Assembly: GCF_016065055.1 (NCBI RefSeq)
Contig: NZ_CP065856.1
Location: 3,533,836-3,597,835, forward strand
Length of the DNA: 64,000 nucleotides
Direction of reading: 5' to 3'
Origin: Halosimplex litoreum
GTDB taxonomy: Archaea; Halobacteriota; Halobacteria; Halobacteriales; Haloarculaceae
Below are positions 14,900-60,874 of the stretch, piece by piece; the first letter of the stretch is position 1, and each line of letters begins with the position of its first letter. Under the pieces are notes generated by a model. The model did no database searches and was not told the origin of the DNA. It saw only the letters and a list, made by a program, of their open reading frames with translations. A program made the position numbers and the translations under genes.

Positions 14900-15940
14900 A
14901 TGACATCGATCGGAGTCGTCGGCGCGGGCGCGGCGGCCGCGGCCGCGACGTACGTGCTCGACGGGGCGGTCCCGTCGGCCGAGGTGACGGTACTGGAGAA
15001 ATCCCGGGGCGTCTGCGGCCGGGCGGCCACTCGCCGCCGGGGCGACGTGACCTACGACTACGGCGCCAACTACGTCAAGAGCGACGACGACCGCGTCGTC
15101 GAACTGCTGACCGAGACGCTCGATTCGGACGGGCTCGTCGACGTGACCGAACCGATCTACACCTTCGACGCGGAGGGCACGGTTTCGGAGGGGCGCGACG
15201 CGGACGACCACAAGTGGAGCTACCGCGCGGGGCTGACCCAGATCGCGAAGCGGCTGCTCGGCGAGACCGACGCCACGGTGGAGAACGCGACCAGAGCCGA
15301 GACGCTCGTCCGCGACGGCGAACGGTGGCGCGTCGTCGACACCGACGGCGGAGAGTGGGGGCCGTTCGACGCTCTGTTGCTCAATCCGCCCGCGCCCCAG
15401 AGCGCCGAGTTGCTACGTGAGGCCGAGTGGGAGAGCGAGGCCCGGCGGGACCTCGCCGAGGCGGCCGATGCCGTCCCCTACCGCACGATCTGGACGGCGG
15501 TGCTGGGCTACGAGTTCGAACTCGACCGGCCGTACTACGCGCTGGTGAATCCGGACCGGGACCACCAGATCGGCTGGATCGCCCGCGAGGAGTGCAAGGC
15601 GGGCCACGTCCCCGACGGCGAGTCCGTGCTGGTGGTCCAGGCCAACCCCGACTGGTCGGTCGAGCGCTACGACGACGACGCGGCCGAGAACGTGGCGGAG
15701 TTGGCCGACCTGACGGCGGAAGTGCTCGACGACGAGCGACTGGCCGACCCCGAGTGGACCGACCACCAGGGCTGGCGCTACGCGCTCCCGGACGAGGGCG
15801 TCCGGCGGGGCGCGGTCGACGACGCGGCCCAGGCGGACCTGTACGCCCTGGGCGACTGGGTGGCCGGCGAGGCCCGCCTGCACGCCGCGCTCCGGAACGG
15901 GCTGGACACCGGCGAGCAGGTCGCTTACGCGCTGGAGTAG
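14900..15940 (+). CDS. Renalase-like NAD(P)/FAD-dependent oxidoreductase
   Basis: This 346-residue amine-oxidase-fold flavoprotein has IGVVGAGAAAAAATYVL at the N-terminus for FAD binding, EKSRGVCGRAATRRR (second Rossmann strand and arginine motif) and YDYGANYVKS. The C-terminal ALGDWVAGEARLHAALRNG is the terminal FAD-contact motif of the renalase / proto-oxidase group. Bacterial renalases oxidise aberrant dihydro forms of NAD(P)H; whether this archaeal relative does so is an inference. It is cytosolic. ATG 14900 sits 82 bp after the CapA-like gene. Its 3' end overlaps the convergent PAP2 gene by 16 bp. Confidence 0.87.
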   Translation: MTSIGVVGAGAAAAAATYVLDGAVPSAEVTVLEKSRGVCGRAATRRRGDVTYDYGANYVKSDDDRVVELLTETLDSDGLVDVTEPIYTFDAEGTVSEGRDADDHKWSYRAGLTQIAKRLLGETDATVENATRAETLVRDGERWRVVDTDGGEWGPFDALLLNPPAPQSAELLREAEWESEARRDLAEAADAVPYRTIWTAVLGYEFELDRPYYALVNPDRDHQIGWIAREECKAGHVPDGESVLVVQANPDWSVERYDDDAAENVAELADLTAEVLDDERLADPEWTDHQGWRYALPDEGVRRGAVDDAAQADLYALGDWVAGEARLHAALRNGLDTGEQVAYALE

Positions 15941-16800
15941 CGGGGTCCGACGACGGACTGCGGGCAGACGGAGCCGGTCGCGTCGTCCGAACTACCCAGG
16001 ATGGCGGGCGGGGCGAGCAGTCCGATACCGAGCGCGACGGTGAGCGCGAACACCACTCCCGACTGTGGATCGGCGATCGGGGTGGCGGCGCCCAGCGCGG
16101 CGAGAAGCGGGAGGAGTCCACCGACGAGCGCCAGCCGCCACAGCGACCGGTCGACCGTCGTTGCCTCGCTGGCGACCGCCCAGGCGGCGGCTCCGCCGAC
16201 TGCGAGTCCGAGGAGGGAAACGGCGTCGCGGTCGGCACCACTGACCGCGACGGCGAGGAGGGCGGCTGCGACCGCGAGCAGGAAGGCGAGCCGAGGATCG
16301 CGACCGGTGAGTCCGAACGCGACCACGAGGAAGACGGCGCCGAAGACGATCCCGGCCAGCACGTCGCGGACGAAGTGGACGCCGAGGACGACTCGCGAGA
16401 GCGCGATCAGGGAGACGAGGCCACCGGCCGCGGCGTAGCGGACTCTGGAGGAGCCGACGTCGAGGTCGAGGGCGAGAGCGCCGTAGGCGACGGTCGCGCC
16501 CATGGCGTGGCCGCTCGGAAAGCTGTGGCCGCCGGCCGGGACGGCGTTGACCGACGCGGGCGGTCGCGGCGCGGCGAAGGCGTGTTTGAGCGCGGTCAGC
16601 AGCGCCATCCCGGCGACGACGACACCCATGGCGTGAGCGCCGCGCTCGCGGTCGCCGAACCAGTAGTCGAGCGCGAACGCGGCCAGGAAGACGCCGAGGT
16701 TCCCGAGTCGAGTGATTCCGCGGAACACCGGCACGAGCCACGACGGCACGGCCGCGCGGACGGTTTCCCCCAGCGTCCCGAGAGCGACACTGCCGGGCAT
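15925..16800 (-). CDS. PAP2-superfamily membrane phosphatase
   Basis: This 291-residue integral membrane protein contains the three phosphatase motifs of the PAP2 superfamily: KxxxxxxRP (KHAFAAPRP, 72-80), PSGH (95-98) and SRxxxxxHxxxD (SRVVLGVHFVRD, about 134-145). These enzymes dephosphorylate lipid phosphates such as phosphatidate or polyprenyl diphosphates. The conserved part is followed by a long hydrophobic C-terminal half with several more helices. ATG 16800 starts just before the conserved SWLVPVFRGITRLGN. A paralogue with the same architecture lies at 50000-50848. Confidence 0.9.
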   Translation of the reverse strand: MPGSVALGTLGETVRAAVPSWLVPVFRGITRLGNLGVFLAAFALDYWFGDRERGAHAMGVVVAGMALLTALKHAFAAPRPPASVNAVPAGGHSFPSGHAMGATVAYGALALDLDVGSSRVRYAAAGGLVSLIALSRVVLGVHFVRDVLAGIVFGAVFLVVAFGLTGRDPRLAFLLAVAAALLAVAVSGADRDAVSLLGLAVGGAAAWAVASEATTVDRSLWRLALVGGLLPLLAALGAATPIADPQSGVVFALTVALGIGLLAPPAILGSSDDATGSVCPQSVVGPRYSSA

Positions 16801-16986
16801 CGTCACAGATCGGTCCCGGGAGTACTTGGACGTGTGGCCGGCCATCGCCGGCCGTTCGGACACCACGTCGGTCGGGGCTGTCGACGGGCACTCGTCGGTG
16901 GGGCGACACGCTACCGGCGCGGAGTCGACTCGAAACCGGCTCCGAGCGCCGGAGTACCACGACCTTACCGAGACGCGCGCGGGCGG

Positions 16987-17427
16987 TCACGCCGCCGCGG
17001 GCTCGTCGGTCGGCGCCGAGACGGCGGCGTCGGCGTACCACAGCACGGAGAAGTCCTGCGGGCTCGGCAGCGCACAGGCCATCCAGCCGACGGCGGCGAA
17101 GCGGACGAGGCCGTCGGTCGCGAACGGGTCGGCGACGACACCCAGTGGGACGGCCGCGAACGGCACGGCCAGCGCCAGCGGCATCATCGCCGAACACCGC
17201 AGGACCCACACAGGGGTCTCGGCGGTCGGACGCGGCTTGACCGCGGCCCAGCGCCCCCGCAGGCCCGCCCCGAGGACGCCGGTGTCCTCGCCGGGGAACC
17301 AGTCGATCCGGTAGGGGACGCCCGCGGCACCCAGTGCGGCCGCGTGGGCGAGTTCGTGGGCGACGAGGCCGGCGCTGACCGCGAGGGCGAGCACGGTCAC
17401 GGCCGCGGCGATCTCGATAGGCGTCAT
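16987..17427 (-). CDS. Small M50-like (HExxH) membrane protein
   Basis: The 146-residue membrane protein has HELAH (HExxH, residues 24-28) inside its first hydrophobic helix, followed by GVPYRIDWFPGE. This recalls the first zinc motif of site-2-protease-like or DUF3267-like proteins. A later hydrophobic stretch (PLALAVPFAAVPLGVV) and a third segment are present. I cannot see a clear second zinc-ligand motif (NxxPxxxxDG), so peptidase activity is uncertain. The next gene downstream on the same strand is the PAP2 protein, 187 bp away. Confidence 0.72.
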   Translation of the reverse strand: MTPIEIAAAVTVLALAVSAGLVAHELAHAAALGAAGVPYRIDWFPGEDTGVLGAGLRGRWAAVKPRPTAETPVWVLRCSAMMPLALAVPFAAVPLGVVADPFATDGLVRFAAVGWMACALPSPQDFSVLWYADAAVSAPTDEPAAA

Positions 17428-17520
17428 CTACTCGGGGTACGGTGGTCGTACCGGGCCGGTAATCGACTATCAATCTATCGGTCCCAGCGACCGGTCACGT
17501 CAGACGACGACGGCCCCGAT

Positions 17521-18110
17521 ATCACGACCGAACCGCCCGAGAGCCCGTTCCACACGACGGGCACCGACCACACCACCCGCATCGGTAGTACCGAGGAAGA
17601 CACGGGGGAGTTCTACCGTGACCTGCTGGGAATGGCGCTCGTCCTCCGCCGGTCACCCCTCGACGACCCCGACTCTACGCATCTCTCCTTCGACGCCGGT
17701 GACGCCCGCATCATCACCTCCGTGCTGACCGACGACCGGGAGTCGTCGGCTGCGCCGCTGGGCCACCAGGTCGGGTCGGTCCGCCACCTCCCCCTCGGCA
17801 TCGACCCGGAACGATTCGGCGAGGTCGAGCCCGCGCTGGAGGAGTTCGGCCACGGCTACAACGAGTTCGACCGCGGTATCGTCCACTCGCCGATCACCCG
17901 CAACCGGGACGGCCCCTCTGTCGAACTCGCGACCGTCCTGCGGATCCGCGTCGCCGACGACGCCGAGTCCGCCGAAGCCGAGCACTTGGAGCAGACGCTC
18001 GACGAATTCGGCATCGACGGCGAACCCGTGGAACTCCCGGACGCGCCGACCGGCCCCGGTGTGGCGTACCAGCACGAGCACGGCGGCACCGCGCACACCC
18101 GGACTCGCCG
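17521..18110 (+). pseudogene. Decayed VOC (glyoxalase-fold) gene
   Basis: The reading frame encodes a recognisable vicinal-oxygen-chelate protein: DHTTRIGS, FYRDLLGMALVLRRSPLDDPD, HLSFDAGDARIITSVL, HGYNEFDRGIVHSP and VELATVLRIRV. It has no ATG, GTG or TTG before the conserved region. The position where related proteins begin MTT reads ATC ACG ACC (17521). The frame also has no stop before the aldo/keto reductase gene. Family consensus residues are replaced (SPITRNRDG where a YTRDxxG-like stretch is expected). These defects suggest a gene remnant. A sequencing error or a rare ATC start remain possible for the 5' end only. Confidence 0.65.
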
Positions 18111-18163
18111 GGAACGGCTTCCGGGAAACCAACCTCTAAGCGAGCGGCCGCCGTGGGTCCGAT

Positions 18164-19171
18164 ATGGAGTACAGACGACTCGGAGAGACGGGACTGCAGG
18201 TGTCGCCGGTCTGTCTCGGCACCTGGCGCTTCGGCAAGGACCACGACGGCGTCGTCGAGACCGACCGCGAGGACGCCCACGAACTGCTCGACGCCTACGC
18301 CGAACGGGGCGGCAACTTCATCGACACCGCCAACGGCTACGGCGGCGGCGACTCCGAACGCTGGATCGGCGAGTGGCTGGAGGGCGAGGACCGCGAGGAC
18401 TACGTCATCGCCTCGAAGTGTTTCTGGTCCACCGTCTCGCGCTTCCAGGAGAACCTCTCGAAGAAGAACGTCCGGGCGGAGGTCGAGGGCTCGCTCGACC
18501 GACTCGGCACCGACTACCTCGACGTCCTCTACCTGCACCGCTTCGACGACGACACACCGATCGAACACACTCTGCGGGCCGTCGACGACCTCGTGAGCGA
18601 GGGGAAGGTCCACTACGTCGGCATCTCGACGTGTGACGCCTGGAAGCTCACCAAGGGCCTCTGGAAAGCCGACGTGAACAACTACGAGGCCTTCAGCCTG
18701 ACCCAGCCGCTCTTCCACGCCGCCTACTACGAGGACGTGGCCGAGTACCTCGACGTGTGCGCGGACCAGAACCTCGCGGTCTGCCCGTACTCGCCGCTCG
18801 CGGGCGGGTTCCTCACCGGCAAGTACGAGCGCGTCGGCGACGGCACCTACGACCTGGACGCCGACGAGGGGACCCGCGGCGACCTCGACCCGATGTTCGA
18901 AGACTGGTACGTCTCCGAGCGCGGCTGGCACGTCCTCGACGCGGTGCGCGCGGTGGCCAACGAGGTCGACGCCTCGCCCGCACAGGTCGCGCTGCGGTGG
19001 CTGATGGACCAGTCGGAGTTCGACTGCGTCCCCATCGTCGGCGCTCGGACGGTGGACCAGCTCGACGAGAACATGGGCGCCGTCGACGTGTCCATCTCCG
19101 ACGAGCAGTTCGACCGCATCTTCGAGGCCCGGTACGACGACGAGGGTGAGCTGTACGAGACGAACGCCTGA
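18164..19171 (+). CDS. Aldo/keto reductase
   Basis: This is a 335-residue NAD(P)H-dependent aldo/keto reductase with a TIM barrel. The catalytic tetrad is visible: Asp54 and Tyr59 in FIDTANGYGGG, Lys85 in IASKCFW and His125 in LYLHRFDDD. The cofactor-binding GARTVDQLDENM is near the C-terminus. It resembles the group that includes YhdN/Gsp69-type reductases and potassium-channel beta subunits. The substrate is unknown. ATG 18164 starts the usual MEYRRLGETGLQVS. Confidence 0.95.
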   Translation: MEYRRLGETGLQVSPVCLGTWRFGKDHDGVVETDREDAHELLDAYAERGGNFIDTANGYGGGDSERWIGEWLEGEDREDYVIASKCFWSTVSRFQENLSKKNVRAEVEGSLDRLGTDYLDVLYLHRFDDDTPIEHTLRAVDDLVSEGKVHYVGISTCDAWKLTKGLWKADVNNYEAFSLTQPLFHAAYYEDVAEYLDVCADQNLAVCPYSPLAGGFLTGKYERVGDGTYDLDADEGTRGDLDPMFEDWYVSERGWHVLDAVRAVANEVDASPAQVALRWLMDQSEFDCVPIVGARTVDQLDENMGAVDVSISDEQFDRIFEARYDDEGELYETNA

Positions 19172-36975: not shown

Positions 36976-39519
36976 CTACTCGTCGGTCGTCCGGGCCGAC
37001 GGCGTGAGCCGGCTGTTGTGCCGCCGGTCGACGTCGACGTACTCGACGTTCGACGTCGTCGGCGCGGCCTTCTCGTACCGACCGCCGTTGGTGGCGTCGT
37101 GCATCGCCGGCCCTTCCAGGTCGGGGCCGCCCGTCTTGAACCGCGTCGGCGGCGGCGCGACGTCGTTGTCGGTCCCGTCGCGGCCGACGAACACGGTGTC
37201 TCGGGTCTCCGAGCCGCCCATCGCGAAGTGACCGATATTGAAGTCGGCGATCACGCTGTCCTCGAGGACGGACGTCTGGAACTCGGTCCAGACGGCCGAG
37301 TGTTCGCACTTGTAGGCGGTGAAGCCGGTGAGGCGGTCCGTCCGGTCGCTCGGGATCTCGTCGGGGTCGATCTCCATCGGTTCGAGCTGCATCATCAGCC
37401 CGATCCCCTGACAGAGGTGCTGGTAGTGGGACATCCGCCACGAACGCAGGAGTTGGTCGCCGTCGACGTCACCGGTGTAGCCGTCCAACTGCCGCTGCGG
37501 GCGAACCGAATAGGAGTGGGCGACGTTGTCCTCGAACCGGACGTCGAACTGGGTCGCGTCGAGTCCGACCTCGGTCTCGTCGTGCCCGTCGTAGAAGAAG
37601 CCCATCGCGCCGTAGCCGCCGGCGGCGTGGTTCCCCACGAGGGTGTTGTTGGGGTTGGAGATCCAGAACGCGGCCGGTCGGAACGCGTTCTGCTGTTTCG
37701 GTCGGCGGCGCACGTCGCCCGGGTTCACCAGATCCCCGCCGAAGGCGCGGTCGCGCTCTCTGACGACCTTCGTGAGCATCGCGAGGTTCTCGCTGAAGAC
37801 GTTGCCCTCCTCCGCCGGGAGGCCCTGCTCGACGAGATAGGAGTGGCCGATCGTGTCGAACACGACGTTGCGCTCGATCTCGACGTTGCCGGTCCCGTGA
37901 GCGTTGATGCCGCGATTGAAGCTGTGCCAGACGCTGTTGTGCTTGAGGTACGACCCTTCCTGGTCGCCCGCGTGGTGGAAGTGCAGCGGGTACCTGGCCC
38001 GGTGGCCGGACTGGCCGCAGCGGAACGCCTCGAGCCCCTCGATCCGAACTCTGCCGGGGTCGGCGAAGATGGCGTGGCCGCCGAAGCCAGCGGCGTACTC
38101 CGAGTCGACACCGCTGTCACGGTCGACGTAACTGAGGTCGTCGCCGCGGAGTTCGACGTTTCGCGTGAGCAGTCCGACTTCCGCTCGCATGTCGAGGTCC
38201 GCCCCGGCGTGACGCTCGACGGCGCCGTAGTGGTCGTGGTCCAGCGGGTCCTCGAGCGTCACCTCGTTCCCGTCGACCGACTCGACCGTCCGCCGTTCGG
38301 CCTGCCAGGGATCCGAGCCGCTAGGCGCGATCGCGATCCGGTCGCCCGCCTCCCAGTCGACCGCCTCGGCGAGCGTGAGCGTCTCCGCGCCCGCGTCGGC
38401 GTGGGCGTCCAGTTGCGTCCAGTCGGTCTTGTCCCGACTCGCCCCGTGGATCTCGATCGATCCGCCGTCCCAGGTGCCGAGGAGCTTCGTCCCGATCGCC
38501 ATGACGTCCTCACCTCTGACGTTCCCGTGGCCGAGTCCCACGAGCGTGATCCGGGCGTCGTGCTCGTACGGGTCCGCCTCGGACCCGATTCGAACGAGTG
38601 CGTCCGACCCCTCGGCGAGCAGCCACGTCGTCGTGAGTTCCAGGTCGACGTCGTCGCCGTCGTCGTCCACTGGCACGATCGAACAGGCCTCGACCTCCTG
38701 CCAGACCCGTGCCTCGCCCGGCTCGTCGTCCTGCGTGTACCACTGGGCCTCCCAGTTTTTGCCGTCGTACGAGACCACGTCACCCGACCGGTAGGCGGTC
38801 TCGTGAGAGTCGCTCGGTCGCCAGCGAGGGGCACACGCGGCTGCGTCACCGTCGAACTGGCCGCCGTCGTCGGTGTTCTCCGTGCCGGGTGACCCGGCTC
38901 CGACCGCCGCGTCGGCGTTCTGTCCGTCGGTTTCTCCCTCGCCACTCTCGTCACACGGCCCGATCTCTTTCCAGGGCCCGTAGCGCCGTGCGCCCGGCTG
39001 GTCGCCCCTGGTCCACCACTTGGCTTCCCAGCGCGTGCCGTCGTACGTCGCCTCGTCACCGTCCCTGTACACCGTCTCTGAATCCCAGGCCGGTGCACAG
39101 GGCGACTCACCACCGCTATCGTCGTCACCGTCGGCGCCGTCTCCACTGCCTCCCTCACCGCTTCCACTGCCGCCGTTATCGCTTCCGTCGCTGCCGTCAC
39201 TGCCGTCGTCGTGGGTCGATTCGACGATCGATCCGTCGGCGAATTCGAGCGTCCCGTTGACGAGGACGCCGTTCAGCGGCGGCGGGCTCGTGTCGAGGAT
39301 GACGTGGTCGCCCTCCTCGATAATCACCTTGTCTCCCCGTTCGGGAAGCGAGCCGTCCCACGTCTCCGGGTCCGACCATTCGGTCCGTTCGTCGTCTGTC
39401 TGTGCCGTTCCCGTTTCCGTCGCGAGGGCTCCCGCAGCGACGAGACCGCCGGCCGCCTGAAGAAACCGTCGCCTGTCCAGCGCCCCCCGATGCGTATCGC
39501 TATCGTCGTGATCTGACAT
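36976..39519 (-). CDS. Tat-exported G8-domain beta-helix protein with two CBM5/12-like modules
   Basis: This is an 847-residue extracellular protein. Residues 16-40 (DRRRFLQAAGGLVAAGALA) are a twin-arginine signal. Residues 47-98 (TEWSDPETWDGSLPERGDKV, GDHVILDTSPP, NGTLEFADGS) form the first half of a G8 domain. A Ser/Gly/Asp linker leads to two CBM5/12-like modules with Trp/Tyr pairs (141-188 WDSETVYRDGDEATYDG; 228-278 TAYRSGDVVSYDGKNWEAQW). The G8 fold then resumes at about 290-330 (LELTTTWLLAEGSDALVRIG). The remainder is a right-handed beta-helix with LHFHHAGDQEGSYLKHN and NAHGTGNVEIERN, like animal CEMIP/TMEM2. Polysaccharide binding or cleavage is likely. ATG 39519 starts MSDHDDSDTHRG. 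Confidence 0.88.
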   Translation of the reverse strand: MSDHDDSDTHRGALDRRRFLQAAGGLVAAGALATETGTAQTDDERTEWSDPETWDGSLPERGDKVIIEEGDHVILDTSPPPLNGVLVNGTLEFADGSIVESTHDDGSDGSDGSDNGGSGSGEGGSGDGADGDDDSGGESPCAPAWDSETVYRDGDEATYDGTRWEAKWWTRGDQPGARRYGPWKEIGPCDESGEGETDGQNADAAVGAGSPGTENTDDGGQFDGDAAACAPRWRPSDSHETAYRSGDVVSYDGKNWEAQWYTQDDEPGEARVWQEVEACSIVPVDDDGDDVDLELTTTWLLAEGSDALVRIGSEADPYEHDARITLVGLGHGNVRGEDVMAIGTKLLGTWDGGSIEIHGASRDKTDWTQLDAHADAGAETLTLAEAVDWEAGDRIAIAPSGSDPWQAERRTVESVDGNEVTLEDPLDHDHYGAVERHAGADLDMRAEVGLLTRNVELRGDDLSYVDRDSGVDSEYAAGFGGHAIFADPGRVRIEGLEAFRCGQSGHRARYPLHFHHAGDQEGSYLKHNSVWHSFNRGINAHGTGNVEIERNVVFDTIGHSYLVEQGLPAEEGNVFSENLAMLTKVVRERDRAFGGDLVNPGDVRRRPKQQNAFRPAAFWISNPNNTLVGNHAAGGYGAMGFFYDGHDETEVGLDATQFDVRFEDNVAHSYSVRPQRQLDGYTGDVDGDQLLRSWRMSHYQHLCQGIGLMMQLEPMEIDPDEIPSDRTDRLTGFTAYKCEHSAVWTEFQTSVLEDSVIADFNIGHFAMGGSETRDTVFVGRDGTDNDVAPPPTRFKTGGPDLEGPAMHDATNGGRYEKAAPTTSNVEYVDVDRRHNSRLTPSARTTDE

Positions 39520-56561: not shown

Positions 56562-57865
56562 CAGGCGCCACCCCCTGTGGCCCCCGCCGAGCGCCTGGCT
56601 TCGACTTCGAGCGCGTACTCCAGCGCCAGCGCCAGCGGCGTCCCGCGGCGCCAGTCGACGGTCCGCGCGCCGGTCGACTGACAGCGCGCCAGCCGCGTCC
56701 GCCGCCGAATCCCGTCGAGCCGGCCACCGACGGTCGTCGCCGAGACCACGTCCGGCGAGAGGACGGTCCGCGCCCGCCCGAGCGAGGCCCACGTCTCGAC
56801 GGCCTCGACGGGCCGGCCGTCGAGCAGCGGCGAGACGAGCAGCAGTTGCGCGCGTGGCTCCGCTACCTCCGCGACCTTCCGGAACTGGTAGGTCGCGTCG
56901 ACCGGCGTCTCCACGTCGTACTCGACGGCGCGCTCCACGCTCGCCGTCAGTCGCGAGCGGTGGTTCGATCCCGAGCCGGGCTCGATCCAGTCTAGTCCGC
57001 CCGGCCCCCTGGCCTCCCGGCCGACGACGGCCAAGCCCACGTCGTGGCCGGCGCGCATGAGCGCGGTGACCGTCCGTACGGCGGCGTAGGCCGACCGTTC
57101 GACGGCCGTGGGCCGTCCGGGACCGGCGGCGACGCGGTTGCGCCCGCGGGCGTCGAGGACGACCACGACCGTCGTCGAGACCCACCGCTCGTACTCGACG
57201 GTGGCGAGTTCGCCCCGCTGGGCGTAGCCGCGCCAGTCGATACGGTCGGCGGCGTCGCCGTGGCGATACTCCCGCGTCGAGTGAAACTGCACACCCCGTC
57301 CCGGTCGGTCGGCGGTGAGCCGGCCGACGAAGTCGTCGCCGCGCTCGGCCAGCGGCGGCGCGTCGGCGTCCAGCCGACAGACCAACCGCTCGTCACCCGA
57401 CGGCTGGGGCTCGACGGTCGCGACCATGCCGGCTCCGGCCGACCGCAAGCGGGCCCGCGGCGAGTCGAAGTCGTACTCGCCGCGACGAGCGACGACGGTG
57501 TACTCGACCGTACGCGACTCGCCAGGGCCGAGCGTCGCCCCCGCTCGGGGGGACCCGTCGACGACCTGCAGGTCGTCGGGCACCCCGTCGACGAGCCGCA
57601 GGTCCGACAGCGTCCGGTCGCCCTCGTTGGTCGCAGTCAGCGCGACGGAGACCGGTCGTCCCGGCGGTGCCGGTGTCGGGTCGACGGTCCGGGAGACGGC
57701 CAGGTCGTCGGGCGGGTCCACCGTCGAGAGCGTGCCGTAGGCGACGAACACGAGCGGGATGGCAGCGCCGAGGACGAGCGTCGCGCTGCGGTTCCAGACC
57801 CCCGCGACGGCGAGGACGAGCGCCGCCGCGACCGCCCCGCGCCAGCGGACCCGCCGCCTACGCAT
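56561..57865 (-). CDS. DUF58 domain protein
   Basis: The 434-residue protein has two N-terminal membrane helices (AVAAALVLAVAGVW, ATLVLGAAIPLVFVAYG), an extracytoplasmic beta-sandwich (about 50-190), and the DUF58/VWA-like core with GVQFHSTREYRHGDAADRI then DWRGYAQRGELATVEYERW and a following TVVVVLDARGRNR strand. DUF58 proteins are MoxR clients of unknown biochemical role, often linked to cell-surface functions. ATG 57865 overlaps the upstream gene by 8 bp. The C-terminus (DWRRGTPLALALEYALEV) has no recognised motif. Confidence 0.88.
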   Translation of the reverse strand: MRRRRVRWRGAVAAALVLAVAGVWNRSATLVLGAAIPLVFVAYGTLSTVDPPDDLAVSRTVDPTPAPPGRPVSVALTATNEGDRTLSDLRLVDGVPDDLQVVDGSPRAGATLGPGESRTVEYTVVARRGEYDFDSPRARLRSAGAGMVATVEPQPSGDERLVCRLDADAPPLAERGDDFVGRLTADRPGRGVQFHSTREYRHGDAADRIDWRGYAQRGELATVEYERWVSTTVVVVLDARGRNRVAAGPGRPTAVERSAYAAVRTVTALMRAGHDVGLAVVGREARGPGGLDWIEPGSGSNHRSRLTASVERAVEYDVETPVDATYQFRKVAEVAEPRAQLLLVSPLLDGRPVEAVETWASLGRARTVLSPDVVSATTVGGRLDGIRRRTRLARCQSTGARTVDWRRGTPLALALEYALEVEARRSAGATGGGA

Positions 57866-58736
57866 CGTCCCACACCTCCCCGAGCAGGTCCTCCGAGTCC
57901 TCCGCGTCACCCTCGGTCCCGAGGTCGTCGCCTCGCTCGGAGGAGCGGGACCCGCGAACCGACGCCCCGTTCGCGTCGCCGCCGGCCGCATCTTCTCCGT
58001 CGTCGGGCTCGCCGTGTTCGGCCGCACCCGACCGCTGGAGCCGCCCGTCGGCGGCACGCTGGAGGCCGCCGAGCGCGGGCGCCAGCGTCGGGACCGTTCG
58101 CGGGGCGTCCCGACCGACGACCGACGGGAGTTCGCGCTCGGCCGCCTCGTCGACGGCCGCGACCGCGCGAGCCGTCCCGCGGCGGACGACGCGCTCGGGG
58201 AACAGCCACGCGCGCAGGCGCTGTCGGAGCGACAGGCGGGGGAGAGCGACCCGTTCGTCGACGACCGCCGCGGCGACGGGGTCGTCCGTCCAGGCACCGG
58301 TCGCGAGCGCCTCCTCGACGTCGTCGGTATCGCTCCCCCCGGCCGCGAGCACCCGACTCAGCGCGTCCCGGAGCGGCGGCCGGACGACCGCGAACCCCTC
58401 CTCGACCGTCTCGGACTCCCTGGCGCGCTCGCGGGCCTGCTCCACGAGCGCCGCGAGTTCGTCGCCGGTCACGTCCGCGGGGTCGGCCGTCTCCTCGGGC
58501 GTTCCGTCGACCAGTCCGCCGCCCTCGTCCCAGGGCGCCGGCGCGACCGCCTCCCCGTCGGCGCCCGACCGGTAGAGTTTGCCCGCCGCGAGGCCGAGAC
58601 CGGTCACCACGAGGAGGAGCGCACCCCCGCCCGCGTCGGAGGCCGACACCGGCGTCAGCGTGACCGCGAGCACGAGCCCCACGCCGATCGCGCCGATCCC
58701 GGCGACGCCAACCAGTCCCGCGAGCCAGCGGTTCAC
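57858..58736 (-). CDS. Small membrane protein in the MoxR operon
   Basis: The 292-residue protein has two N-terminal helices (LAGLVGVAGIGAIGVGLVLAV, GGGALLLVVTGLGLAAGKLY). The rest is a cytosolic acidic helical region with EELAALVEQARERARESETV-like and DVEEALATGAWTDDPVAAAV segments, then a disordered Asp/Gly-rich tail. I do not recognise the family. Its start overlaps the DUF4129 stop by 4 bp (ATGA), and its end overlaps the DUF58 start by 8 bp. Tight coupling suggests a fixed stoichiometric partner. Confidence 0.72.
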   Translation of the reverse strand: MNRWLAGLVGVAGIGAIGVGLVLAVTLTPVSASDAGGGALLLVVTGLGLAAGKLYRSGADGEAVAPAPWDEGGGLVDGTPEETADPADVTGDELAALVEQARERARESETVEEGFAVVRPPLRDALSRVLAAGGSDTDDVEEALATGAWTDDPVAAAVVDERVALPRLSLRQRLRAWLFPERVVRRGTARAVAAVDEAAERELPSVVGRDAPRTVPTLAPALGGLQRAADGRLQRSGAAEHGEPDDGEDAAGGDANGASVRGSRSSERGDDLGTEGDAEDSEDLLGEVWDDA

Positions 58737-60874
58737 GGTTCGTCCTCCTCCCGTTCACGTTCACGCTCGCGGTCGATAGACTCGAAGGCCTCACGGGCGC
58801 GGTCACCACGGTCGCCGGCCGGCCGGTCGCCGTACTCGACCTCGCGGAAGGCATCGGTCAACGCCCGTACCGGCCGCTCGGGTAGCCCGCGTTCGATGGC
58901 CGCCCGCGACACTTCGCCCGGCGTCGACTGGCGCCACCTGCGCGGCCGGACCCGCTTGGCGAACCGTCGCCAGAGCGCGCGGATCGACCGCCGCTTCCGG
59001 CGGCCCCCGTCGTCCCCGGTCGCGCTGGGACCGGTCGCGACCGCCGAACGCCCGCCTTCGCTGGCCCCGTCGTCGGTGTCGGGCACCTCTCGAGTCAACC
59101 GGCGGTACGCGACGGCGGCGATCCAGAGCGCGACGAGTCCGCCGAGGAACCCGAGGGGCCCGAACAGGCGCGTGAGCGCCGCGAGCAGTCCGGCCGCGAG
59201 CAGGGCGGCCGCGACGCGGCGGACGGTGAGTCGAGCCGACGCGAGTCGAACCGCGATCCACCGTCGCACCCGACCGGGGAGCGCCCGGAACCACCCCCAG
59301 AGACGGGCGGCGATCGCCCGGAGCGACAGGGGGAGGTCGGCGACGCGACTCGCGAGTCGGCCGAGCAGCGCCGCGAGTCGGTCGAGCCCCGCCGCGACGC
59401 CGTCGGCGACCGCGAGCGCCGCGCGGCGTGTCCACGCTGTGAATCCGCTCGACCGCTCCGCGACCGTCCGGCCGCCCGCCGCGACCGCTCGCCGATGTCG
59501 AACCGCTGCCACGAGACCGACGAGAGTGCCAGTCGCGAGCAGCCCGACCCCCTCGCCGACGGCGAAGCCGACGAACAGGGCGACGAGTGCGACCCACCAC
59601 GTCGCGATGCGTCGTGCGGCAGTTCGATCGCGAACCCGTGCGGCGGCCCCCGTCGCGACGATCCCCCCGAACAGCACGAGTCCGCCCCCGAGCATCGTCG
59701 ACGCGTAGGCGGTCCACAGCGGCACCGTCGCCGACTGGCGGTCGGTCTCGACGACGACCGTCCCACGGGGGTCGGCGGGGAGCACGAGAGCCACCGTGCC
59801 GTTTCGGTCGGTCGATCCCAGCCGCGACCCGTCGATTGCGACCCGGGCGTCGGTCGCGGGGTCCGGGCCCGCGGCGGCGGCCACCAGCGCCGGCTCGCCG
59901 GGGACGGGCAGTCCTTCCTGGGGGACGATCGCGGCCTCGAGTTCCCACACGTCGATAGTCCGCGAGCCCGAGAAGTCGCCGCGCTCGACAGTCACCGACA
60001 GCTCGGCCGCGTCGGCCGGGACTGCGAGTTCGTAGCGTCCCTCGGCGGTCGTCCGCCCGACCCGCTCCCCGCCGACGGTCACGGCCGCGCGACCAACTGG
60101 AATCCCCTCGATCGCGGCGCGGACGGTCACGTTCGTGCCGGGGTAGGGGTCGCCGACGACCGAGACGTTCACCGCTCCGTCGACCGCGTAGCCGCCGGTG
60201 TCGTTCCCGTCGCCCGTCCGCTGTCTCACGCCGGAGTTCGGGCCGACCCCGTGCGCTCCGCGGTGGGCGCCGACCGCCGCCCACCCGACGCGGTCGACCG
60301 ACCTCGCGCCGGCTCCGACGGACAGCTCGACGGGGCCGTCCCCCTCGTCGTCGGTCGGCGGTCGGAAGAACTCGCAGTCCTCCCCGGGCAGCCGGACGGT
60401 GACGTTCAGCTGGCGCGTGTACGGCACGCGGCCGTCGACGCGACCGGCCCGGTCGGTCCGGCCGACGAAGCGGTCGCCGAACCAGACGGACACGTCGGGC
60501 GCCGGTCGCAGGTCGTCGTAGACCCGCACGGAGACGACGTCGCCCGGGACCGGATCGTCCTCGACGACGACGCCGCACCCCCGCTCGATCGGGGCCCCGT
60601 CGTCGCCCGGTATCGGCAGCGGCTCCTCGACACCGTCCCCGTCGTCCTCGCCGCCTCCGTTGCCGCCACCGCTCCCACCGCCGTCGCGTCCACCGCCACC
60701 GTCGTCGTTCGATTCGCGTCCCGGGTCGAACCCGCCACCGTCCGGCGAGACCGGTGCGACGAACGCGGCGACGACGAGCCCGATCAGACAGAGCCCGACG
60801 AGCGCGGCCTGACGGCGGTCGACACCTGCGGCTTCGCCGCGGCCGGTCCCGTCCGTCGGTTCGCTCTCTGACAC
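58733..60874 (-). CDS. DUF4129 protein with Ig-like repeats
   Basis: This 713-residue membrane protein heads the operon. From GTG 60874 (VSESEPTDGTGRGEA) there is one N-terminal helix (ALVGLCLIGLVVAAFVAP), then a low-complexity Gly/Asp linker and three repeats of a carboxypeptidase-regulatory-like fold (VSVWFGDRFVGRTDRAGRVD, AAVTVGGERVGRTTAEGRYE, ARVAIDGSRLGSTDRNGTV). Several further helices follow. The C-terminal region TPGEVSRAAIERGLPERPV to EAFESIDRE is DUF4129. These proteins co-occur with MoxR and DUF58 in prokaryotes. The upstream GTG/ATG at 61045 is not used because its extension is non-conserved. Confidence 0.8.
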   Translation of the reverse strand: MSESEPTDGTGRGEAAGVDRRQAALVGLCLIGLVVAAFVAPVSPDGGGFDPGRESNDDGGGGRDGGGSGGGNGGGEDDGDGVEEPLPIPGDDGAPIERGCGVVVEDDPVPGDVVSVRVYDDLRPAPDVSVWFGDRFVGRTDRAGRVDGRVPYTRQLNVTVRLPGEDCEFFRPPTDDEGDGPVELSVGAGARSVDRVGWAAVGAHRGAHGVGPNSGVRQRTGDGNDTGGYAVDGAVNVSVVGDPYPGTNVTVRAAIEGIPVGRAAVTVGGERVGRTTAEGRYELAVPADAAELSVTVERGDFSGSRTIDVWELEAAIVPQEGLPVPGEPALVAAAAGPDPATDARVAIDGSRLGSTDRNGTVALVLPADPRGTVVVETDRQSATVPLWTAYASTMLGGGLVLFGGIVATGAAARVRDRTAARRIATWWVALVALFVGFAVGEGVGLLATGTLVGLVAAVRHRRAVAAGGRTVAERSSGFTAWTRRAALAVADGVAAGLDRLAALLGRLASRVADLPLSLRAIAARLWGWFRALPGRVRRWIAVRLASARLTVRRVAAALLAAGLLAALTRLFGPLGFLGGLVALWIAAVAYRRLTREVPDTDDGASEGGRSAVATGPSATGDDGGRRKRRSIRALWRRFAKRVRPRRWRQSTPGEVSRAAIERGLPERPVRALTDAFREVEYGDRPAGDRGDRAREAFESIDREREREREEDEP

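Follow-up and report, generated by a model that had tools for sequence, protein, structure and literature searches.

Two carbohydrate-binding modules nested within the G8 domain of a haloarchaeal CEMIP/TMEM2-type beta-helix protein

INTRODUCTION

A gene of the haloarchaeon Halosimplex litoreum raises the question of how a G8 domain can be divided by two carbohydrate-binding modules (CBMs), and what the resulting protein might do outside the cell. The best-known proteins of this type, CEMIP and TMEM2, are relevant to hyaluronan turnover, hearing, and cancer. In TMEM2 (8C6I) and CEMIP (KIAA1199/HYBID), as in the haloarchaeal protein, G8 leads into a CEMIP right-handed beta-helix, and the crystal structure of TMEM2 revealed that G8 is itself part of that continuous helix (PMC10206443). 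The same study detected no hyaluronidase activity for TMEM2 and assigned no active site (PMC10206443), whereas Narita et al. reported that the protein is intrinsically active (PMC10474455). Here, we describe the gene within its window, that is, the whole 64,000-nucleotide stretch of DNA that was analyzed, and compare it with relatives from archaea, bacteria, and animals.

RESULTS AND DISCUSSION

Anatomy of the protein

The gene can be read part by part as follows, in the order of the polypeptide.

36976..39519, minus strand: whole gene, 847 aa; probably secreted G8-(CBM5/12)x2-CEMIP beta-helix protein (open reading frame and Pfam)
39400..39519, minus strand: probable Tat signal, aa 1-40, RRRFLQAAGGLVAAGALA...TAQ, without a lipobox cysteine (sequence and sub-threshold profiles)
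39229..39387, minus strand: first half of G8, aa 45-97, covering profile positions 1 to ~48 and the opening turns of the beta-helix
38641..39228, minus strand: insert, aa 98-293, not in CBM-less orthologues (alignments)
38953..39099, minus strand: CBM5/12 module 1, aa 141-189, with flanking cysteines and the WW pair in EAKWWT
38683..38835, minus strand: CBM5/12 module 2, aa 229-279, with flanking cysteines and the WY pair in EAQWYT
38410..38640, minus strand: second half of G8, aa 294-370, profile 46-123 (Pfam and AlphaFold2 pLDDT)
37510..38088, minus strand: CEMIP beta-helix, PF24606, aa 478-670 (Pfam; 8C6I by profile and fold)
37975..37995, minus strand: RYPLHFH, aa 509-515; Y510, H513, and H515 invariant in 60/60 sequences and also in TMEM2
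37891..37899, minus strand: HGT, aa 541-543; H541 invariant
37810..37830, minus strand: aa 564-570; two invariant glutamates, E564 and E570, that may be catalytic acids

Considered as anatomy alone, we are nearly certain that two CBM5/12 modules are nested within the G8 domain of a CEMIP/TMEM2-type beta-helix protein. Export by the Tat pathway, which had been suggested from the sequence in an earlier note on this DNA, still appears likely. Although Tat profiles matched the protein below their curated cut-offs (Pfam, E 0.042; NCBIfam, E 0.011), the twin arginines R16 and R17 are invariant in the alignment of all eight orthologues. The neighboring genes encode a metallo-beta-lactamase-fold protein, an Lhr helicase, a GAF histidine kinase, and a HEAT protein, and say nothing about the substrate. 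Among the orthologue loci compared, synteny around the gene is kept solely in Halosimplex carlsbadense. Elsewhere in the window, two long open frames (15427-18636 and 57759-59708, both plus strand) had no Pfam match at 1e-5; they could be unknown proteins or frames without coding function in a G+C-rich genome.

A G8 domain in two pieces

Our results reveal that the G8 domain is complete but discontinuous. Its Pfam score was 76.4 bits (curated cut-off, 22.9), spread over two collinear pieces: a first stretch, which matched profile positions 1-49 in the genome search, and a better one, in which aa 290-370 match positions 46-123. Between them lie about 196 residues (aa ~98-293) made up, in order, of an acidic Gly/Ser linker, a CBM, a linker, a second CBM, and a short linker. 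The earlier note had placed two CBM5/12 modules inside G8, and Pfam indeed found CBM_5_12 twice between the halves. The second half of G8, which the note put at about 290-330, extends farther, to about residue 370. With profile positions 46-123 lying at aa 290-370, the domain is not complete before residue 100.

The same split was found in four CBM-bearing orthologues at 71-87% identity, the nearest being that of H. carlsbadense 2-9-1 (87%) and the others standing at 77-78% and 71%. Three further orthologues, from Natrinema altunense AJ2, a second genome of the same genus, and Haloarcula amylolytica (50-53% identity), carry no CBMs. They resemble the window protein in G8, beta-helix, and twin-arginine N terminus, but differ in another C-terminal tail and in a contiguous G8. 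Specifically, Pfam reported one unbroken domain (profile 1-123/124) in each of the three, and in the alignment LEF.DG runs directly into ELT at the seam where the window protein has its additional residues. One genome, G368, has CBM-bearing and CBM-less forms together. Across 392 Halobacteriales genomes, 26 of 30 G8 domains were contiguous; the remaining four, all broken at profile 46-49, belong to the clade of the window protein. Deinococcal-class G8 domains were all contiguous, and plasmid records held distant relatives only (<60% identity).

Nested insertions are unusual, and an argument could be made that unrelated genes or a misassembly interrupt a G8 gene, which would make the architecture a prediction artefact or an assembly chimaera. 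Yet, five genomes have the same architecture, with both flanks of the insert conserved in the orthologues, and G+C content is uniform (0.685 in the insert versus 0.679 in the host gene). We consider an artefact exceedingly improbable and reject misassembly on these grounds.

In a tree of 60 sequences from which the insert was left out, the five CBM-bearing proteins formed one haloarchaeal clade (support 100/99) that is sister to the three CBM-less orthologues (100/100), so that a single gain of the insert within the clade suffices. Gain is also a simpler reading than loss in the sister clade, because CBMs occupy the seam in no other aligned row. All eight haloarchaeal orthologues lie close to Bacteroidota sequences in the tree (92/89), and a second haloarchaeal group is distant from them. 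This group (L032-L055) is widespread; its G8-CEMIP proteins, mostly about 930-1100 aa long, have a contiguous G8 and weak PF24606 scores, and are separated from the window-protein clade by a deep split.

Searches of the open-access literature yielded no description of an archaeal G8 protein, of a CBM inserted in G8, or of an archaeal CBM pair nested in the opening turns of a helix of the CEMIP type. The two building blocks themselves belong to known families. The existence of forms with and without CBMs offers a clean, natural test of what a carbohydrate module does when it lies inside a beta-helix protein instead of being attached at its end.

Kinship with TMEM2 and a candidate active site

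The claim that a CEMIP/TMEM2-like beta-helix follows G8 held at the level of both sequence and fold. CEMIP_beta-hel (PF24606) matched aa 478-670 with 153.4 bits, against a cut-off of 27.3 (E 9.3e-45). A profile built from the 60 sequences had human TMEM2 (8C6I) as its sole sequence match in the PDB (E 2.9e-117), and TMEM2 was likewise the top Foldseek match (E 5.8e-22), ranking ahead of a capsule polysaccharide lyase, tailspikes and depolymerases of phages, and beta-helix enzymes of GH110 and GH87. AlphaFold2 run with the 60-row alignment gave a pTM of 0.75, in which the G8 halves and the following helix were mostly above 90 pLDDT: about 95 for the first half, and mostly >90 for the second, with lower values around 330-340. 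The insert was poorly scored in that model. When eight close orthologues alone were supplied, the first CBM was well folded and the helix reached a pLDDT of 40. The contiguous homologues and the confidence of the model suggest that the two G8 halves (aa 45-97 and 294-370) are in contact. The earlier note's picture of a separate G8 barrel did not survive, since the TMEM2 structure has G8 as the first turns of the beta-helix (PMC10206443).

The window protein and TMEM2 both have a carbohydrate-binding-type domain inserted in the helix, but the site differs. In TMEM2, the lectin-like domain follows G8 (chain about 165-336, between G8 and the main helix), and the seam is a short loop, GDNKDGS, in the alignment to 8C6I; in the archaeal protein, the CBM5/12 pair sits at the seam inside G8. 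When the family profile was aligned to 8C6I, the POMGNT1-type lectin-like domain had no matching residues; we treat that domain as a trait of the animal (TMEM2) subfamily, not of the whole CEMIP/TMEM2 family. Furthermore, the archaeal protein differs from TMEM2 in having no transmembrane anchor and, judged by length, in lacking the C-terminal domains.

W389, Y510, H513, H515, H541, E564, and E570 are invariant in 60/60 archaeal and bacterial sequences, R509 is arginine in 58 and lysine in two, and H430, H482, E408, and R453 are nearly invariant. Six of the invariant residues (Y510, H513, H515, H541, E564, and E570) are conserved in TMEM2 as well, within RYPVHFH, HGT, and FFLEDGIE, so that the motifs RYPxHFH, HGT, and E..G.E are common to TMEM2/CEMIP and the window protein. 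H515, H541, and E564 are spaced 23-26 residues apart, or about one helix turn, a spacing that would fit a cluster on one face of the helix. We nominate the conserved H, E, and Y residues as a candidate active site of the CEMIP/TMEM2 family. As the TMEM2 structure paper could assign none, these residues are a direct and testable proposal. Mutagenesis and crystallography could be simpler on soluble prokaryotic members, which have these invariant residues too, and the haloarchaeal protein provides a simple system for probing a poorly understood family.

The CBM5/12 modules and their target

The modules are clear members of their family. CBM_5_12 matched twice in Pfam with 60.4 bits (cut-off, 26.2; E 1.7e-16), while the genome search scored the modules singly at 39.3 and 36.9 bits and found no other CBM5/12 domain in the window genome. 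Rather than being part of an unrelated fold, they have the CBM5 fold with its exposed aromatic pair, and one module superposed on the Streptomyces griseus chitinase C chitin-binding domain at 1.0 A over 49 columns. The fold and the WWT/WYT pair are common to ChiC (2D49/1WVV) and to haloarchaeal CBM5-PKD-GH18 chitinases, and the flanking cysteines are as in ChiC. In contrast to the modules of those chitinases, the window modules sit in a loop of another domain and are accompanied by neither PKD nor GH18. Modules 1 and 2 are 49-57% identical in orthologues where both were compared, apart from the G368 orthologue (L056:8772-11249, minus strand), where the two CBMs share 84% identity, a pattern that suggests recent duplication or gene conversion.

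As for what the modules bind, we have a modest preference for chitin over cellulose. The closest relatives of the modules, in sequence and in structure, bind chitin, and the CBM-less orthologue of Haloarcula amylolytica sits between CBM5/12-PKD-GH18 chitinase genes. Besides the chitinases and the CBM-less G8-CEMIP gene, that locus (L061:2118-15448) includes a subtilase and a CBM5/12-PKD protein (L061:13592-15448); Pfam found no match in the C-terminal ~390 residues of the latter. Within the orthologue flanks (about 15-20 kb), a chitinase cluster was found beside this CBM-less gene only. GH18 occurs in all three CBM-less genomes, compared with 62 of 392 genomes across Halobacteriales, but two of the three are from one genus, and the association is thus not independent evidence.

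Alternatively, the CBMs could bind cellulose, and the protein could be an accessory factor with which cellulose-growing Halosimplex acts on some polymer that accompanies the cell walls of plants or algae. H. carlsbadense 2-9-1, host of the 87% orthologue, grows on amorphous cellulose (PMC10267330), and HArcel2, a Halosimplex-like strain, shows growth with cellulose but none with chitin (PMC4569967). In addition, the profile search found no GH18 in the window genome, nor is there any in three of the other four CBM-bearing genomes, so that a chitin-degrading context is lacking in genomes that have the CBMs. The window protein also has one weak, sub-threshold match to CBM_5_12_2 ("cellulose-binding"). 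Nevertheless, the best relatives of the modules in structure and sequence bind chitin, and a haloarchaeal GH18 chitinase carries modules similar to them. On balance, the cellulose reading strikes us as rather unlikely.

Function of the protein

How the polypeptide might work can be followed along its length. The chain would begin the beta-helix as the first half of G8, leave it at a turn on the surface, where flexible acidic linkers carry the two CBM5/12 modules, and then re-enter, complete G8, and climb the helix toward a putative active-site face bearing R509, Y510, H513, H515, H541, E564, and E570. We infer a Tat-exported, endo-acting depolymerase of a polysaccharide containing GlcNAc, uronate, or both. 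Through its CBMs it would be anchored to an insoluble beta-1,4-glycan, either chitin or cellulose, with the substrate in or near that glycan. Such anchoring would parallel the function that has been proposed for the lectin-like insertion in the helix of TMEM2. Taken jointly, the anatomy and a secreted depolymerase function seem to us somewhat more probable than their negation.

The same parts could instead make up a non-catalytic adhesin, where the beta-helix only binds glycan and the protein as a whole fastens cells or other enzymes to particles. Binding or presentation without cleavage would fit the study in which no TMEM2 hyaluronidase activity was detected (PMC10206443), and the inserts at the same seam in Pirellulales (see below) resemble adhesion or docking modules. 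However, we saw no cell-wall anchor in the sequence of the window protein, and the strict conservation of H, E, and Y across archaea, bacteria, and an animal protein exceeds what a scaffold would appear to need. The intrinsic activity of TMEM2 reported by Narita et al. (PMC10474455) also argues against a purely adhesive role, which we regard as improbable.

A reused insertion seam

The seam is not peculiar to haloarchaea. By tracing G8 matches that begin at profile 46-49 (33 in one case), we identified Pirellulales G8-CEMIP proteins (L078/L137, L134, L132, and L133) where another module breaks the domain at about profile position 46. In L078/L137 and L134, from two genomes, the insert is a LamG (ConA-like) domain with its C-terminal half before its N-terminal half, and a dockerin match lies between these permuted halves in L134. 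In L132 and L133, two proteins of one genome, the insert is about 50 residues of EF-hand/dockerin-like sequence, for which the dockerin label is weak (Pfam, E 0.013 and 0.26). While the seam is identical, these inserts are unrelated to the archaeal tandem CBM5/12, so the same G8 loop was used independently. Comparison of these sequences identifies the seam as a reused insertion site, which we did not find described in the open-access literature and which marks a site for engineering.

A more general reading is that the seam (profile 45/46) is a plug-in socket, filled independently with targeting modules in different lineages, by tandem CBM5/12 in haloarchaea and by permuted LamG or EF-hand/dockerin-like segments in Pirellulales, with a lectin at the next junction in animals; that H/H/H/E/E is the true active site; and that the prokaryotic members depolymerize GlcNAc or uronate polymers. 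We offer this combination tentatively, as possible and short of probable. If it is true, the disputed catalysis of CEMIP and TMEM2 would be settled.

Several minor observations concern the bacterial G8 proteins. The LamG domain within G8 looks circularly permuted at L134:2222-6223 (minus strand) and L078:5080-8583 (plus strand). At L072:3036-6797 and L076:5863-8898, the open frame that encodes the CEMIP helix continues into a G8-like stretch, and the G8 order appears repeated or permuted. Finally, a dockerin type I module is inserted at another loop of G8, around profile position 29, at L135:1083-3845 (minus strand) and L136:4152-5462 (plus strand).
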